From IMG/VR virus record IMGVR_UViG_3300037584_000573, positions 1-22,063 of that record: a DNA stretch of 22,063 nucleotides. The stretch is one strand, 5' to 3'. This DNA is from a virus. Positions 6,620 to 21,460 of the stretch are shown here, piece after piece (the stretch's first letter is position 1; each line of letters opens with the position of its first letter). The position numbers and the translations under genes were made by a program. The notes beneath the pieces are model-generated. The model did no database searches and was not told the DNA's origin. It saw only the letters and a list, made by a program, of their open reading frames with translations.

Positions 6620-9600
6620 ATGGCTACTCACGATTATGTTATAGATAACTCCACTGGAGCTAATGTCCGAACTGATTTAAATAATGTACTGCAAGCGATA
6701 TTAACAAATAACAGTTCTGGTTCTGCTCCCAGTACCACTGCAAGTTATATGCTTTGGGCTGATACAAGTAATAATATATTGAAGATGAGAAATACAGCTA
6801 ATGATGGCTGGATTGATTTAAGAACACTTACTGGTGGTATAACTTCTAGTGCTGATGCAACAATAAATTCTGTAGCTATTGGTAAAGGAGCAAACTCTGT
6901 TGCTGGTAACACAGTTCTTGGAGAAAGTGCTTTAGATGCTTCTGTTACAGGGGATCAAAATACTGCTATTGGAAAACAAACTTTATCAGCTAATACTTCT
7001 GGTGCAAAAAATAACGCATTAGGATTTCAAGCATTAAGAGCAAATACAACTGGTTCTAAAAATAATGGTATAGGATATTTAGCACTTACCACAAATACTA
7101 GCGGTGCTAATAATGTTGCTATTGGTGATGAAGCAATGCAAAACAACACCACAGCAAATGATAATACAGCAGTTGGAAGGCGATCGTTAAAAGCGAACAC
7201 AACTGGAACGCAGAACGTTGCATTGGGATCTGATGCTTTACTAGTAAACACAACCGCAAGTAGCAATACAGCCGTTGGCTATAATTCACTAGGAGCAAAC
7301 ACAACTGGGGCATTAAACACTGCTTTTGGAGCCGAATCATTAAAGACAAATACAACTGGACAAATAAATACTGCTTTGGGTTATCAAGCATTATATAGCA
7401 ATACAACTGGCGAACAAAATGTTGCAGTAGGACATCAAGCTTTATACAGCAATACAACAGCAGATCATAATACAGCCGTTGGTAAAGATGCGTTGGAAGC
7501 AAACACTACTGGAGCCGATAACACAGGAATTGGTTATCATGCTTTAGATGTAAACACAACTGGAGGATTTAATACTGCTGTTGGATCTGGTGCTTTAGAC
7601 GCTGCCACTACTGCTAATAACAACACAGCTATTGGCTATGAGTCTTTAGGAGCTAATACAACTGGAGCTACTAACACAGCCGTAGGAGCTAATGCCTTAG
7701 ATGCAAATACAACTGCTAATGCAAATACTGCTATTGGTTTTGGTTCTTTAGGAGCTAATACAACTGGTGCTGCAAACTCTGCTTTAGGGTCAAACGCACT
7801 AGAAAATAATACTACAGGTGGTAGTAACGTAGCAGTAGGTCAACAGGCACTTACGAACAATACAACAGCATCTAACAATACTGCTGTTGGTAAAGACGCT
7901 TTAGCAGCAAACACAACTGGAGCAGCCAGCACTGCGGTTGGATTTAGTGCTTTAGATGCTAACACCACTGGCGATCAAAATACTGCCTGTGGAAATAATG
8001 CTTTAGGAGCTAATACAACTGGACAATACAACACTGCATTAGGTACCCAAGCTTTAATAAACAACTCAACCGCTTCAAATAACACTGGTCTAGGAGCATT
8101 TACTTTATTAACAAACACAACTGGAACAAATAACGGAGCAGCTGGATACAGTGCATTATATAATAACACCACAGGAAGTGCTAATAATGCGTTTGGATAT
8201 TTTTCTTTGTACTCTAATACAACTGCTGGTAACAACAGTGCTTTTGGACACGCTTCACTAAGATTAACTACGACTGGTGCAAATAATAGTGCTTTTGGTA
8301 TGGAAGCACTTAGAAATAATACAACTGGAACAAAAAATACTGCTGTAGGCTCTAATTCAGCAGATGCAAACACAACTGGTGACTTTAATGTTGCTCTTGG
8401 ATCAGATTCATTAACTGCAAATACAACTGGTAGCTCAAATACAGCATTAGGTGTTGAAGCATTAAAAGCAAATACTACTGCAAGTAATAATGTTGCCATC
8501 GGAAAAGATGCAATGATAGCAAACACAACTGGAGAAGAAAACACCGCCGTAGGTGCTAGTACAATGGATGCTAATACAACTGGAAGTTTCAACGATGCTT
8601 TTGGAAGAGATGCTTTAGGTAGTGGATCTGGATTCACTAAATGTTGTGCTTTTGGTAATAGTTCTTTAAAATTCAATACAGCAGATTTTAATAGTGCTTT
8701 TGGTTTTTCTGTATTAGCAGGAAACACAAGTGGGACTTCTTTAACTGGTTTAGGTGCTCTTGCTCTTCTTAGTAACACAACGGGTTCAAATAATACAGCA
8801 GTTGGAAGGAGTGCTTTAGAAGCAAACACAACTGGACATTCCAATACAGGAATTGGTAAAGATGCTTTATTTTCCAACACAACTGGAACTTCAAACACCG
8901 CTATAGGCAGATTAGCTTTAGAAGCAAACACAACTGGAATACAGAACTCAGCGTTAGGATTTGAAGCTTTAGATGCCAACACAACTGGTGAAAATAATGT
9001 CGCAATAGGTGATAGTTGTTTAAGTTCTAATACTACAGCTAGTAATAATACTGCGGTGGGTAGAGCTTCTTTAAATGTATGCTCAACTGGAGCAAAGAAT
9101 ACTGCTTGTGGAAAAGACTCTTTACAAAATCTTACAACAGGAAGTGATAATACTGCTGTTGGTATTTTTTCTGGTTACGAAGTTACAACAGGAGATAATA
9201 ATTTGCTGTTAGGTAATGATGCTGGAAGGCCAGGTAGTCCACTTCATGTAACAACAGGAAGTAATAGAATTGTTTTAGGAAATAATAGTATTACTGACTG
9301 TCATATTAAAGTTGATTGGACTGTAAGTTCAGATCAAAGAGATAAGACAGATATACAAGATATTACAACTGGATTAGATTTTGTTAATCAACTAAAACCT
9401 AAATCATTCTGGTTTAGAAAAAATCGTAGTTCAGATTTAAAACATGGCAATAAAAAGTATGGATTTTTAGCACAGGACATTCTTACATTAGAAGGATCAG
9501 ATCCTGTAATTATTGATAATCAAGAGGAAGATTATTTAAAATATCAAGGATCACATTTAATACCAATACTTGTTAACGCAATAAAAGAGTTATCCGCAAA

Positions 9601-9625
9601 AGTCACAGCCCTCGAAGCAGGGTAA
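6620..9625 (+). CDS. Tail fibre/adhesin: YadA-head-like repeats and S74 chaperone domain
   Basis: Probable trimeric tail fibre, 1001 residues. Residues 1-96 are a non-repetitive attachment part with a phage-fibre-like stretch (YMLWADTSNNILKMR, NDGWIDL). Residues 97-860 are 45 tandem 17-residue repeats with consensus NTAxGxxALxANTTGxx, resembling the head repeats of trimeric autotransporter adhesins such as YadA. Residues about 901-1001 form an intramolecular chaperone (Peptidase_S74) domain with VSSDQRDK (Ser904, Lys909 as probable self-cleavage dyad), YGFLAQDI, and a C-terminal coiled coil (LVNAIKELSAKVTALEAG). In that family the domain trimerises the fibre and then cuts itself off. A weak GGATTAGG precedes the ATG. 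The role in host binding is inferred from position and architecture. Confidence 0.88.
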   Translation: MATHDYVIDNSTGANVRTDLNNVLQAILTNNSSGSAPSTTASYMLWADTSNNILKMRNTANDGWIDLRTLTGGITSSADATINSVAIGKGANSVAGNTVLGESALDASVTGDQNTAIGKQTLSANTSGAKNNALGFQALRANTTGSKNNGIGYLALTTNTSGANNVAIGDEAMQNNTTANDNTAVGRRSLKANTTGTQNVALGSDALLVNTTASSNTAVGYNSLGANTTGALNTAFGAESLKTNTTGQINTALGYQALYSNTTGEQNVAVGHQALYSNTTADHNTAVGKDALEANTTGADNTGIGYHALDVNTTGGFNTAVGSGALDAATTANNNTAIGYESLGANTTGATNTAVGANALDANTTANANTAIGFGSLGANTTGAANSALGSNALENNTTGGSNVAVGQQALTNNTTASNNTAVGKDALAANTTGAASTAVGFSALDANTTGDQNTACGNNALGANTTGQYNTALGTQALINNSTASNNTGLGAFTLLTNTTGTNNGAAGYSALYNNTTGSANNAFGYFSLYSNTTAGNNSAFGHASLRLTTTGANNSAFGMEALRNNTTGTKNTAVGSNSADANTTGDFNVALGSDSLTANTTGSSNTALGVEALKANTTASNNVAIGKDAMIANTTGEENTAVGASTMDANTTGSFNDAFGRDALGSGSGFTKCCAFGNSSLKFNTADFNSAFGFSVLAGNTSGTSLTGLGALALLSNTTGSNNTAVGRSALEANTTGHSNTGIGKDALFSNTTGTSNTAIGRLALEANTTGIQNSALGFEALDANTTGENNVAIGDSCLSSNTTASNNTAVGRASLNVCSTGAKNTACGKDSLQNLTTGSDNTAVGIFSGYEVTTGDNNLLLGNDAGRPGSPLHVTTGSNRIVLGNNSITDCHIKVDWTVSSDQRDKTDIQDITTGLDFVNQLKPKSFWFRKNRSSDLKHGNKKYGFLAQDILTLEGSDPVIIDNQEEDYLKYQGSHLIPILVNAIKELSAKVTALEAG
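6908..9199 (+). repeat. 45 tandem 51-bp coding repeats in the fibre gene
   Basis: There are forty-five consecutive 17-residue units (51 bp each), all in register except one 16-residue unit (CCAFGNSSLKFNTADF). The most constant DNA is the block coding ANTTG, often 'gcaaacacaactgga' or 'gctaatacaactgga'. Units vary mainly at positions 6, 7, 10 and 16-17, the likely exposed faces. Cysteines appear only in scattered units in the second half. Confidence 0.95.
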
Positions 9626-11216: not shown

Positions 11217-11531
11217 ATGAAACATAAATACGAACAAAGAACTGAACACACTCTTGAAAAAGATGACAGATTCTATTTTTACTTCGATCAGTTTGATAAA
11301 GAGATTAATCTCAATTTTCATTCTGCCAGAAATGATGTAACAGAGTATTCAATGTCTGTTGATAAATTCATTAAATCATTGCAAATATCTATTTCAGATT
11401 TTGACAAAAATGAACTAGAAGTAATGAAAACACTCGCTGCTGTTCTATTTACAAAAATAAGAGAGATAGAAAAAGCCGAAGCTGAAGCAGAGCTTGAAGA
11501 AACTGAAGAAAAAGTAACTCAAGCAGCATGA
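11217..11531 (+). CDS. Acidic hypothetical protein, 104 aa
   Basis: The protein begins with a charged stretch (MKHKYEQRTEHTLEKDDRFY), has a mixed core (FDQFDKEINLNFHSARND, then SMSVDKFIKSLQISISDF), and ends in a long Glu/Ala-rich helix (residues 78-103, with EAEAELEETEEK), probably a coiled coil. No known motif is seen. It is first in a short rightward set; its stop overlaps the ParB-like start (ATGA), so the two are probably made together. The candidate extended -10 promoter and palindrome upstream would drive it. Confidence 0.65.
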   Translation: MKHKYEQRTEHTLEKDDRFYFYFDQFDKEINLNFHSARNDVTEYSMSVDKFIKSLQISISDFDKNELEVMKTLAAVLFTKIREIEKAEAEAELEETEEKVTQAA

Positions 11532-12484
11532 CTTCACAAATAGAAAATGCCCTCTCAACTTTATATGAGGGCATAGACTATTCTCTAGAATTTATTACTC
11601 CAGAAAAAGCACAATTTTATCTGGAGAAAAATTTTGAGAATAACCGCAAGATTAGTACAAATAATCTTGAAGAATTAAAAAGAGAGATGAAAAATAGTCG
11701 TTTCATCTTATCTGACTCTGCCATTTGTTTTGATGTAGATGGGACTTTGGTCAATGGTCAACATAGATTACTTGCTGTTGTTCAGACAGGAATGACTCAA
11801 CCATTTCTTGTTGTCAAAAATATGCCTAGCAAATCCAAACAAATAATGGATGTTGGTAAGTCTAGGTGTATGTCTGATCGTATTACTGTTAGTGGTGTCA
11901 GGATCAGTAGAAGAGATTGTGCAACCATAAGACACGCTATGGCTAGTCTTGGACAAACAACTGGTACTGAGCAATATGCCAGACCATGCCATGATGCCAT
12001 AGTTGCAGAAACTTATTTAAAACATAATCAGTTTCTTTTTCTTATGAGTAAAGTCTGTCCTACTAATACAACGAGGGTCAGATCATTTTTTCTTGGAGCA
12101 GCATTAAAAATCTATGCTGAAATGACTTATAACAGTCAAATTACAAGAAATAAAAAGTATAACCATACGATGAACCCTAAAGAAAGGGCATTACATTGGT
12201 TAAATATTGTCACTACAGGTATGGCAAGTCCTATTGATGGTATTGATAGAGATATTAAGCCATGCGATAGAGCAGCACAGATTATTTTTACAAAGTCTTG
12301 TGACAGTCATCTTAAGAGATCTTTCTGGAGTAGTGCTGAAGCCTTTGCTCTTACTGTTAGAGCAGCCCATAACTTTATGATTGGATTAGATACTCAATAT
12401 CTAAAAATTCCAAAAGATGATCCATTTAGAGATTTCATAGAGTTACCTTCCACCAATAAGATAATGACTATGGCATCAAATTGA
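11528..12484 (+). CDS. ParB/DGQHR-like protein, paralogue 1
   Basis: 318-residue protein with a ParB/sulfiredoxin-like N-terminal domain. Residues 23-123 contain ITPEKAQ, FDVDGTLVNGQHRLLAVVQTG and VVKNMP...MDVGKSRCMSD. The GQHRLLA block is the nucleotide-binding ParB/Srx motif, seen also as DGQHR in several phage and DNA-modification proteins. The C-terminal 195 residues are mostly helical with no known motif; residues 194-250 include a basic stretch (NKKYNHTMNPKERALHWLN). A second copy lies at 19400-20266 on the other strand. ParB-family domains act in DNA segregation with CTP, in nicking nucleases or in DNA modification; which applies here cannot be told. It overlaps the preceding gene by 4 bases, and an RHH gene follows 30 bases later. 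Confidence 0.8.
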   Translation: MTSQIENALSTLYEGIDYSLEFITPEKAQFYLEKNFENNRKISTNNLEELKREMKNSRFILSDSAICFDVDGTLVNGQHRLLAVVQTGMTQPFLVVKNMPSKSKQIMDVGKSRCMSDRITVSGVRISRRDCATIRHAMASLGQTTGTEQYARPCHDAIVAETYLKHNQFLFLMSKVCPTNTTRVRSFFLGAALKIYAEMTYNSQITRNKKYNHTMNPKERALHWLNIVTTGMASPIDGIDRDIKPCDRAAQIIFTKSCDSHLKRSFWSSAEAFALTVRAAHNFMIGLDTQYLKIPKDDPFRDFIELPSTNKIMTMASN

Positions 12485-12514: not shown

Positions 12515-12778
12515 ATGAATGAGAATCTACAGCGATTATCAATTCAAATAACAAAACATCAGTACAATTTGTTGAAATATCATCAAAAACCAGGTGTTTC
12601 AATATCTCTTCTTGTCAGACAAGCTCTTGATAAACATTTTGCTGAAGCCGACCAGATTCTTGGAGAACAGGCTATAGAAGATGCTAAATATGAAGAGTAT
12701 GAAAAATATATGCTTGCTCAAGAGGCAGCAGGTGTAAAAGAAGATTCAGTAATGGCTGATGCAAGTTGTCTTTTTTGA
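12515..12778 (+). CDS. Ribbon-helix-helix (CopG/Arc-like) protein, 87 aa
   Basis: Probable DNA-binding repressor or accessory protein. Residues 1-45 fit the ribbon-helix-helix fold: a strand (NLQRLSIQIT), helix A (KHQYNLLKYHQK), a Gly turn (PGVS) and helix B (SLLVRQALDKHFAEA). The C-terminal 40 residues are an acidic helical extension. A paralogue with the same MNxNLQR start and the same helix pattern lies at 21314-21460. As the last gene before the terminator at 12830 and next to a ParB-like gene, it could be a centromere-binding or autoregulatory partner, as RHH proteins are in some plasmid partition systems; that is inference. No Shine-Dalgarno sequence is obvious. Confidence 0.75.
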   Translation: MNENLQRLSIQITKHQYNLLKYHQKPGVSISLLVRQALDKHFAEADQILGEQAIEDAKYEEYEKYMLAQEAAGVKEDSVMADASCLF

Positions 12779-19399: not shown

Positions 19400-20266
19400 T
19401 TAGTATGTGTGATGAGGTAATGGTTTTTGTATTTGTAACACTTCAGAAATATCTGCTGGTGGAGCCATAAATTTTGTTTTTCTTATATCGTTTAAATACA
19501 TATTGAATAATCTGATAAAACAATTCAGTAAGAATCTTTGTGTATTAGATCCTCTATTCCTAAATGCTTTTTGCATTAGTTGGTTTCTAAAAGACAGCAT
19601 TGGATTATCAATATCTAAATTTGATCCTTCATAAAATTTATTTAAGAACTCTTCGATCTCACGTTTCGAATAATCTTTTTCAAGAGCTAGTTTATAAAAA
19701 ACAATAGCGACACTTTTATTGAAGAAATGAAATTTACAATGATGTGAATTAATTCTTGAGGAAATCTCATCCCAAAGTTCTCTTTGATCGTTATATGTCT
19801 CTAAAATCTCAAAGTGAGATGGTTTAGTTACACCGTTTGCTGACCAGCTACCAGATGGATATTTTTTATAAAATATATAGTTTTTGATAGCAGCAGCGAT
19901 TGTTTTAGAACTGTTACCACAGCCAGAGATATGCAAGACATCAGATGCCATTCTTGCTGTACCAGTATCTACAACATTAAATATTTCTGGGTGCATATTT
20001 CTAGCAACCATAATCTTTAATGTCTGACCAGTTTTTACTATCGCTAATAATCTATGCTGACCATCAAGTAGATTTCCTTCACGATCAAAAGCAATTCCTT
20101 GATTTGTTACTTGCCATTCATCATTATCAATAGCTTTTACAAGCCTGTTTAGATTGGTTTGTTTAATAGTTCTATTATTATTATTTCTTTGATCCAGAAT
20201 CTCTTGTGCATATTCTGGAGTAATCTCCTCTACATTGAAAGAAGGTTGGAAGGTTTCATAGTTCAT
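19400..20266 (-). CDS. ParB/DGQHR-like protein, paralogue 2
   Basis: 288-residue protein with the same ParB/Srx-like N-terminal domain as the gene at 11528. Residues 15-115 contain ITPEYAQ, FDREGNLLDGQHRLLAIVKT and VARNMHPEIFNVVDTGTARM. It aligns to paralogue 1 over 101 residues without gaps, with 41 identities by eye. The C-terminal part is helical and differs: SSRINSHHCKFHFFNKSVAI, SKREIEEFLNKFYEG and a Pro-rich end. This copy has the exact DGQHR signature. Its place just after the RHH-fusion gene and before the exonuclease suggests a DNA-processing role, perhaps nicking, segregation or base modification; none is proven by sequence. Confidence 0.8.
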   Translation of the reverse strand: MNYETFQPSFNVEEITPEYAQEILDQRNNNNRTIKQTNLNRLVKAIDNDEWQVTNQGIAFDREGNLLDGQHRLLAIVKTGQTLKIMVARNMHPEIFNVVDTGTARMASDVLHISGCGNSSKTIAAAIKNYIFYKKYPSGSWSANGVTKPSHFEILETYNDQRELWDEISSRINSHHCKFHFFNKSVAIVFYKLALEKDYSKREIEEFLNKFYEGSNLDIDNPMLSFRNQLMQKAFRNRGSNTQRFLLNCFIRLFNMYLNDIRKTKFMAPPADISEVLQIQKPLPHHTY

Positions 20267-20271
20267 TTTTT

Positions 20272-20553
20272 TTAATTTGTAATTGGAAGGTCTTTAGGAT
20301 CAATAATTTCTATTTTCTCCTGTTGTTTAGGGGGTTCTTTTACCCTAGCAAGATTTCTGTATTTGACACCTTGATAACCTTGCGGAAAGGCTTTATTGCC
20401 TTTGGTGTTGTTAATACATTCTGTCCATCCTGGAGGTGGCTTATCTAAATCTTCAAGAGTCCACATCATACGATCAGGATTTTTAGGATTAGGTTTTTTT
20501 AAACCATCTTGAAGTGTTTTTATCAGGGATGTTTGGTCAAATAATCTTTCCAT
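20272..20553 (-). CDS. Hypothetical protein, 93 aa
   Basis: The protein begins MERLFDQTSLIKTLQDGLKK, then has MWTLEDLDKPPPGW and NKAFPQGYQGVKYRNLARVK, and ends Pro/Lys/Glu-rich. Two Trp-containing segments and the TECINN stretch stand out, but I do not recognise a family. The start overlaps the stop of the RHH-fusion gene (TAATG), so the two are co-translated and may work together, for example in replication initiation near the control region. That is inference. Confidence 0.6.
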   Translation of the reverse strand: MERLFDQTSLIKTLQDGLKKPNPKNPDRMMWTLEDLDKPPPGWTECINNTKGNKAFPQGYQGVKYRNLARVKEPPKQQEKIEIIDPKDLPITN

Positions 20554-21023
20554 TATTCAAAACCTCTCTCTGCTGTAAATACTCTTGATGCTGGATGATT
20601 ATTTTTTTGCTCTTCTGGTTTGAAGGATTGCTTAACTGGAAATAAGTCCCTCCAGCCACCTGCTATGGCGTTCTCAAGAGCTTGTTTCCTGTCTTGTGTA
20701 GGAAATGACCTTAACTTCTTAAAGATGCGGTTAGCAACGCTTGTAGAGCAAGTTCCTTTATTTTTATATCTGATACTCCACCATTCAACTAAAAGATCAG
20801 CATATTCTTTCAGATCATCAGGTATTAAATCTGCTGTAATTGTTGGAGAACTGAAAACATCTGTAGATAACACAGGAGCATTTTTTCTTCTGGATTTAGT
20901 TTTCATATCCTTTCTAATCAAGATCCTGAGATAAGCTGACCTTGAAGTTTCTTCATCTCTGTTCTGATCGAGCCATTCAATAAGGTCTGGATCAAGAAAC
21001 ATAGTAATTTTGGTTTTTGCCAT
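20553..21023 (-). CDS. RHH-domain fusion protein, possible replication initiator or regulator
   Basis: Residues 1-42 form a ribbon-helix-helix domain: strand (AKTKITMFLDP), helix A (DLIEWLDQNRD), helix B (TSRSAYLRILIRKDM). Residues about 66-128 form a second helical domain (PDDLKEYADLLVEWWSIRYK, VANRIFKKLRS, ALENAIAGGWRDLFPV). The 'A...I..GW..LF' end recalls the C-terminal part of many phage replication initiators and primosome proteins. A disordered tail follows. As first gene of the leftward block, beside an AT-rich tract and 9-bp repeats, it may bind the origin or its own promoter. One repeat copy overlaps its start codon. Confidence 0.65.
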   Translation of the reverse strand: MAKTKITMFLDPDLIEWLDQNRDEETSRSAYLRILIRKDMKTKSRRKNAPVLSTDVFSSPTITADLIPDDLKEYADLLVEWWSIRYKNKGTCSTSVANRIFKKLRSFPTQDRKQALENAIAGGWRDLFPVKQSFKPEEQKNNHPASRVFTAERGFE

Positions 21024-21045
21024 TCATGCTGACTAACTATTATTC

Positions 21046-21075
21046 ATTATTAGAGCATGACATTAGATGTGTCAA
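21046..21075 (-). promoter_or_regulatory. Strong leftward early promoter
   Basis: On the minus strand a perfect TTGACA (21075-21070), an 18-base spacer, and AATAAT (21051-21046, five of six to consensus) lie 22 bases before the RHH-fusion ATG. This is the best -35 in the window and probably drives the leftward replication/recombination block. Confidence 0.7.
21058..21074. promoter_or_regulatory. Operator-like inverted repeat in the early promoter
   Basis: TGACATTAGATGTGTCA has arms TGACA (21058-21062) and TGTCA (21070-21074); TGACAT/ATGTCA also pair if one G is skipped. It fills the spacer and overlaps the -35 box, the usual place for a repressor site. Confidence 0.55.
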
Positions 21076-21129
21076 GAGGTTGTTACTGATGCTATATAAT
21101 TAAATTCCTGGAAAATCTTTTCCTTATTC

Positions 21130-21253
21130 TTTATTAAATATAAATATATAATATATATATATAATATTATTATATATATCTAATAATTAATAATAAATAT
21201 ATTTATATATATTATATTCTTTTTCTTTTGGTTCTTTTCTTTTTCTTTTTTTT
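21130..21253. other. A/T tract and polypyrimidine tract, candidate unwinding element
   Basis: From 21130 to 21218 only one base (C at 21180) is not A or T, with long alternating TA runs. From 21219 to 21253 the plus strand is almost all T and C (CTTTTTCTTTTGG, then TTCTTTTCTTTTTC). No protein is encoded. The layout, between two divergent promoters and flanked by short direct repeats, is what a phage replication origin could look like. Confidence 0.5.
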
Positions 21254-21281
21254 GCCATTCATACTAAAAGTTATAACTATC

Positions 21282-21290
21282 TGATATACT
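21282..21290 (+). promoter_or_regulatory. Candidate extended -10 for the rightward RHH gene
   Basis: TGATATACT matches TGnTATAAT with one mismatch in the hexamer and lies 24 bases before the ATG at 21314. No good -35 is present. It reads away from the leftward early promoter, giving a divergent pair around the A/T tract. Confidence 0.45.
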
Positions 21291-21313
21291 ACTTATGTAT
21301 ATCGCCATTCATT

Positions 21314-21460
21314 ATGAACAAAAATTTACAAAGAATCTGTGTAGCTGTTGATGTAGACGAATATGAAGAGCTAAAAAAATTTTCAAAATCTGGTTTATCT
21401 ACAGGTTTTTTAATCAGGGAAGCTATACATGATTTATTAGTAAAACTTAGAAAAGATTAA
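21314..21460 (+). CDS. Small RHH protein, 48 aa, paralogue of the 12515 gene
   Basis: The short frame reads MNKNLQRICVAVDVDEYEEL and KKFSKSGLSTGFLIREAIHD, then LLVKLRKD. It is a minimal ribbon-helix-helix (Arc/CopG) protein: strand (LQRICVAVD), helix A (VDEYEELKKFSK), Gly turn (SGLS), helix B (TGFLIREAIHDLLVKL). The start MNxNLQR and the residue pattern match the N-terminus of the 87-residue protein at 12515. At Arc/CopG size it is probably a dimeric repressor and may act on the adjacent operator-like repeats. Its stop overlaps the convergent gene's stop by three bases. Confidence 0.75.
   Translation: MNKNLQRICVAVDVDEYEELKKFSKSGLSTGFLIREAIHDLLVKLRKD

Follow-up and report, generated by a model that had tools for sequence, protein, structure and literature searches.

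A putative replication origin in the divergent early control region of a Prochlorococcus-type siphovirus, next to a gene for an O-like initiator with an RHH-like head

The 290 bases that separate a left-reading RHH-like gene (20553-21023) from a right-reading one (21314-21460) in a Prochlorococcus-type siphovirus probably combine a divergent early control region with the phage replication origin. We put the probability of this model at roughly 0.6. Within it, the product of the left gene, here RHH-O, would be a lambda-O-type initiator in which an RHH head has replaced the usual helix-turn-helix head, and the origin would lie upstream of the initiator gene, between divergent promoters, not inside the gene. 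The structural picture of the region is solid, and we infer its function on good grounds.

The window (the whole stretch of DNA analysed) is a virus record of 22,063 bases, classed as linear. Its best DNA matches are to Marine virus AG-345-A17 and, more weakly, to the Prochlorococcus siphoviruses MED4-117 and P-HS2. The same region is present in a Prochlorococcus single-cell contig, AG-418-M08. Prochlorococcus siphoviruses are common in the ocean, and the literature searched contained no described replication origin for this group. The features of the control region are as follows.

20553-21023, minus strand: RHH-O gene, 156 aa, with an RHH-like head (residues ~3-47) and an O-like initiator domain (67-144)
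21019-21027, plus strand: GCCATTCAT copy 1, candidate operator, overlapping the RHH-O start codon
21046-21075, minus strand: leftward promoter, with -35 TTGACA (21075-21070), an 18-nt spacer and -10 AATAAT (21051-21046)
21058-21074, no strand given: inverted repeat TGACATTAGATGTGTCA, candidate RHH-O operator in its own promoter, from its sequence and from flanks that covary with RHH class
21111-21131, minus strand: second purine-rich box AAGAATAAGGAAAAGATTTTC, on the far side of the A/T tract from the 31-nt tract
21130-21218, no strand given: A/T tract of 89 nt, interrupted by a single other base, candidate DNA-unwinding element
21217-21247, minus strand: ultraconserved homopurine mirror repeat AAGAAAAAGAAAAGAACCAAAAGAAAAAGAA, 31 nt, polypyrimidine on the plus strand
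21254-21262, plus strand: GCCATTCAT copy 2, candidate operator, adjoining the 31-nt tract
21282-21290, plus strand: extended -10 TGATATACT, probable rightward promoter, from its sequence
21304-21312, plus strand: GCCATTCAT copy 3, candidate operator, after the rightward -10 and ahead of the start codon of the small RHH gene
21314-21460, plus strand: small gene for an Arc-like RHH protein of 48 aa, probably a repressor (phrog_3180, Arc-like repressor, E 0.004)

Every element named in a previous, sequence-only reading of this DNA is present in the window: the perfect TTGACA promoter facing left, the inverted repeat within it, the 89-base tract, the polypyrimidine tract, the right-facing extended -10 and the three GCCATTCAT copies, the first of which starts 5 nt before the interval (21024-21313) given for the region. 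The same reading had both flanking genes as RHH genes. Both proteins are indeed RHH-like, with scores under the Pfam cut-offs; the left one is a fusion of an RHH-like head to an O-like domain, and the right one lies below the Pfam RHH cut-off (RHH_1, E 0.015, 15.6 bits against 20.5).

Elsewhere in the window, two genes (19400-20266 and 11528-12484) have a common DGQHRLLA/NGQHRLLA motif; the first has a match in phrog_5931, a family whose function is unknown (E 4e-62), and the second has no real Pfam match. A further RHH_3-like gene of 87 aa (12515-12778; E 0.003, below the cut-off) lies near a strand switch. The 1001-aa protein encoded at 6620-9625 contains many TAVG-type repeats (NTTGxxNTAxGxxAL) and ends in a domain resembling the peptidase chaperone of tail fibres.

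As judged from its relatives, the conserved core of the control region is the polypyrimidine tract, and not the repeats. Eighty relatives were found through the RHH-O protein, and 63 of these have enough upstream DNA for comparison of the tract. All 63 carry it in the form AAGAAAAAGAAAAGAA(C50/G11/A2)CAAAAGAAAAAGAA, with 30 of the 31 columns invariant. Conservation ends at both tract edges, with agreement of ~0.4-0.6 in the left flank and of ~0.7, then 0.5-0.6, on the A/T side. Exact 13-nt homopurine mirror arms, AAGAAAAAGAAAA and AAAAGAAAAAGAA, stand around a GAACC centre, and shuffled windows gave no match to the tract within 3 mismatches. In 108 loci the tract is followed downstream by the RHH-O gene, on the same strand; in the family-like tract loci without it, the contigs end too close to the tract to show the gene. 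AG-345-A17 and the AG-418-M08 phage contig encode the same RHH-O (~75% identical) and carry the exact 31-nt tract; they belong to the same group as the window, have diverged flanks, and are undescribed in this respect within the literature searched. MED4-117 and P-HS2 lack the tract (best 8 mismatches). A host chromosomal location was also rejected, the phage contig being the sole match within 3 mismatches in the AG-418-M08 assembly. A literature search for the tract sequence returned nothing relevant.

The order tract, A/T segment, TTGACA is constant in the relatives examined, and all three elements stand on the coding strand of RHH-O. Of all 100-bp segments of the window, that of the A/T tract has the lowest stability, and the next best A/T run in the window is 31 nt (maximum under a first-order Markov null, 33 nt), and the corresponding segment in relatives averages 94.8% A+T. 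Between this segment and TTGACA, the second purine-rich box is recognizable in 43 of 55 relatives (consensus AAGGATAWRGARAAGAATTTT). As in lambda, the region has a candidate A/T-rich unwinding element with strand-biased purines, the asymmetry being that of the 31-nt tract beside the A/T segment.

The assignment of the left protein as an initiator depends on residues 67-144, which match phrog_678, 'replication initiation O-like' (E 2e-8 for the window protein). This domain is present in all 26 relatives tested (alignment A1). The N-terminus displays an RHH sequence pattern in the same alignment, and approximately six distinct RHH classes sit on one conserved C-terminal domain among the relatives. 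An AlphaFold2 (AF2) model of the left protein, as a monomer, has helices at residues 12-21 and 28-47 (pLDDT ~90) and, with moderate confidence, three helices in the C-terminal part; a fold search of this model against the PDB gave no significant match. The head has matches to phrog_4738 repressors and a weak one to AvtR (E 0.37), and is RHH-like, in place of the winged-helix-type N-terminal DNA-binding head of lambda-type O initiators. No helicase-loader (P-like) family was recognized adjoining RHH-O, and the next gene (20272-20553, 93 aa) has no PHROG family as judged from its counterpart in relative G007, the copy scanned. Nothing relevant to RHH-type phage initiators was found in the literature.

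A close relative of the C-terminal domain is found in CPKG_00028 of the Synechococcus siphovirus KBS-S-2A (46-48% identical: tblastn 48%; hhalign profile match 46% over 103 columns, E 6e-21), with identity reaching to the NHPASRVFTA tail. This O-like protein itself matches phrog_678 (E 1e-17) and differs from RHH-O in its N-terminal, HTH_36-like head. Its gene contains iteron-like direct repeats, CCCCCAAAAGGTGG, at ~24-nt spacing (L251:3829-3972), in a layout that corresponds to the canonical lambda arrangement; these repeats are a candidate origin of a Synechococcus siphovirus. The 31-nt tract was not found within 4 kb in KBS-S-2A (best 10 mismatches). The same C-terminal domain is thus carried there on an HTH head with in-gene repeats; the simplest history would be a swap of the head and a shift of the origin to a place outside the gene.

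In lambda, the origin lies inside O, with four annotated iterons followed directly by an 18-nt purine run on the O coding strand. The A+T-rich region of lambda has nearly all of its purines on one strand, and the origin needs transcription, which can activate it even when directed away from it (PMC5043065). The minimal unwinding fragment consists of two iterons and the A/T region (PMC7466680). The window resembles lambda in its O-like C-terminal domain, in an A/T segment beside a purine run on the coding strand of the O-like gene, in transcription close to the candidate origin and in the lack of a phage-encoded polymerase. It differs in the place of the candidate origin, upstream of the gene, in the RHH-like head and in that no iteron array was seen for RHH-O, for which a single imperfect operator-like repeat with 5-bp arms was found.

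This repeat, TGACATTAGATGTGTCA, lies in the leftward promoter. TTGACA-18-AATAAT scores 11 of 12 matches, although promoter-like matches in general are not commoner than in shuffles (2 vs 5.1), and TTGACA is found 92-151 nt after the tract in 55 of 55 distinct relatives. With arms of just 5 bp and a 7-nt spacer, the repeat is weak taken alone, but many relatives that share this RHH class have the TGACA/TGTCA arrangement too, and the repeat probably serves RHH-O as an operator within the promoter of its own gene. The DNA on the two sides of TTGACA covaries with the RHH class of RHH-O (r 0.83 before it and 0.59 after it; Mantel P 0.0005 for the DNA after it), whereas the correlation of these flanks with O-domain distance is much lower (0.27-0.29). 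Such tracking of the RHH class more than of the O domain is expected if RHH-O regulates its own promoter, and suggests autoregulation; the head and its promoter are neighbours, however, and linkage alone could yield the same covariation. Small extra genes stand between the TTGACA promoter and RHH-O in seven relatives (L010, L018, L026, L033, L050, L053 and L055), leaving promoter and tract undisturbed.

The GCCATTCAT repeats occur beyond chance, with four copies in the window (the fourth at 20113-20121) against 0.15 expected; the RHH-O gene contains none beyond the start-codon copy. The tract-adjacent copy is mostly absent from relatives without the small RHH gene (L026, L030, L032, L050, L056 and L057), with L046, which keeps one copy without the gene, and L027, which has the gene and no copy, as exceptions. 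The 31-nt tract is intact in all loci compared for GCCATTCAT, with or without the small RHH gene. This pattern argues against a role as origin iterons. As they mostly follow the small RHH gene, the sites are better read as operators, probably of the 48-aa protein. The arrangement resembles that of Arc/CopG-type RHH repressors, in that a small RHH gene stands opposite another with short repeats at both start regions; unlike in those systems, one of the two RHH proteins is fused to an initiator domain.

An early switch combined with a DNA-unwinding element, as proposed in the sequence-only reading, is still the best interpretation, and is strengthened by the O-like domain of the left gene, the fixed order of elements and the set of replication genes. 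Searches of the window and of six relatives (28-41 kb) detected no DNA polymerase A/B, DnaB helicase or tyrosine integrase, with controls that came out positive; these records may be incomplete. Where that proposal has shifted is in the conserved core, which is the tract, and in GCCATTCAT, which is more operator-like than iteron-like. Together, the initiator, the purine-asymmetric tract, the A/T tract, the outward promoters and the failure to find a phage polymerase or DnaB favour an origin opened by RHH-O. RHH-O would bind operators that lie near the A/T tract, in the promoter of its own gene, while outward transcription from the two divergent promoters would add negative supercoiling. Opening of the A/T tract, beside the 31-nt purine run, could follow; the C-terminal O-like domain would help to bring in the host replicative helicase, and the opened origin would recruit the host replisome. 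The small divergent RHH protein would act as a repressor through the GCCATTCAT sites. Binding, melting, helicase recruitment, origin activity and repression are in this scheme predicted from the DNA and its relatives. Cumulative GC skew, suggested earlier as a check, did not place the origin here: the minimum falls at the contig end in two long relatives and ~5 kb from the tract in a third, in a measure confounded with gene direction.

It is possible that the region is a divergent transcription switch only, in which the RHH proteins repress both promoters, the tracts set promoter strength or DNA structure, and there is no origin. The divergent pair of RHH genes, the repeats at each of their promoters, the tendency of GCCATTCAT to track the small RHH gene, the covariation of RHH class with the promoter and the skew minimum elsewhere would all be consistent with this. 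However, a switch does not account for an O-like initiator domain in the left protein, and 31 fixed bases are left unexplained. The tract is also kept across all RHH classes, and in the six relatives listed above, which lack the divergent RHH gene and its operators.

Allowing for its single variable base at the centre, the 31-mer was also found in ~14 unrelated phages or replicons (loci L118, L139, L142, L161, L191, L200, L201, L205, L209, L214, L220-L222, L225, L226, L229, L230 and L236), where its centre is CC or GC; one 38-kb contig has two copies (L205 and L221). The 31-mer lies inside replication genes in L118 (PHROG replication initiation, E 2e-19) and L139/L200 (PF07261), and 243 nt upstream of a replisome-organiser gene in L225 (PF09681). 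It is near terminase-small-like genes in L161 (PF03592, E 2e-5) and, judged by appearance only, in L220, L221 and L226. In L214, L230 and L236 it lies upstream of structural genes that belong to a single other phage family; phage records contained no relatives of the L230 gene. The same collection contained no match with a base other than C or G at position 17, and viral contigs contained none to a reversed control pattern of the same composition, negatives that filtering of two-letter matches by the search tool could affect. In 395 Lactobacillales and 196 Clostridia genomes, one 3-mismatch match was found besides those known. The tract is in frame in L118, L139/L200 and L205, read as RKRKE(P/A)KEKE, and some of the unrelated matches may be due to chance or to coding bias. 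Because of the possible filtering, and because this peptide in preferred codons could account for some of them, these matches serve only as a lead. It is doubtful that AAGAAAAAGAAAAGAA(C/G/A)CAAAAGAAAAAGAA is a portable, sequence-exact element common to unrelated phages and other mobile DNA, with hosts among cyanobacteria, Firmicutes and probably others, and read by a conserved factor, e.g. a host replication protein, to open or load origins. The exact tract was rejected as a general element of Firmicutes rep genes, as an Oenococcus DnaD-like gene with the same layout has a best match of 10 mismatches. The DnaD-like genes of that Oenococcus phage (L252) and of an Alkalibacterium prophage (L139) have in common an in-gene AATGAC repeat array, translated as ND repeats, and after it repeats of the CGAATCG type; these are probably in-gene origins that shape the protein linker.

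The terminase-small-like neighbours in four of these loci, and the perfect 13-nt homopurine mirror arms, the sequence hallmark of H-DNA, would fit a structural or processing element apart from initiation, such as an intramolecular triplex, a replication barrier or a packaging signal. For the window family this is unlikely. Mirror symmetry alone would permit compensating changes, and none was seen; the constant neighbour of the tract is the initiator gene; and the terminase lies several kb from the tract in relative G007. A packaging or homing role could not be supported for this family. That the 31 nt are conserved as a translated K/R/E-rich peptide, as the in-frame readings in the unrelated loci might suggest, is highly improbable and for the window family largely refuted, as no open reading frame through the tract is common to all 49 distinct relatives (frames open with a start in 31, 34 and 10), ORF lengths scatter, and no synonymous coding in which the proline codon differs turned up in a scan for such variants.

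If the origin model is right, a lambda-O-type initiator can take on a different DNA-binding head and relocate its origin to a site outside its gene. Metagenomes could then be screened for such origins with the tract as a marker, and the tract, being short and invariant, could serve as direct bait for its binding partner.
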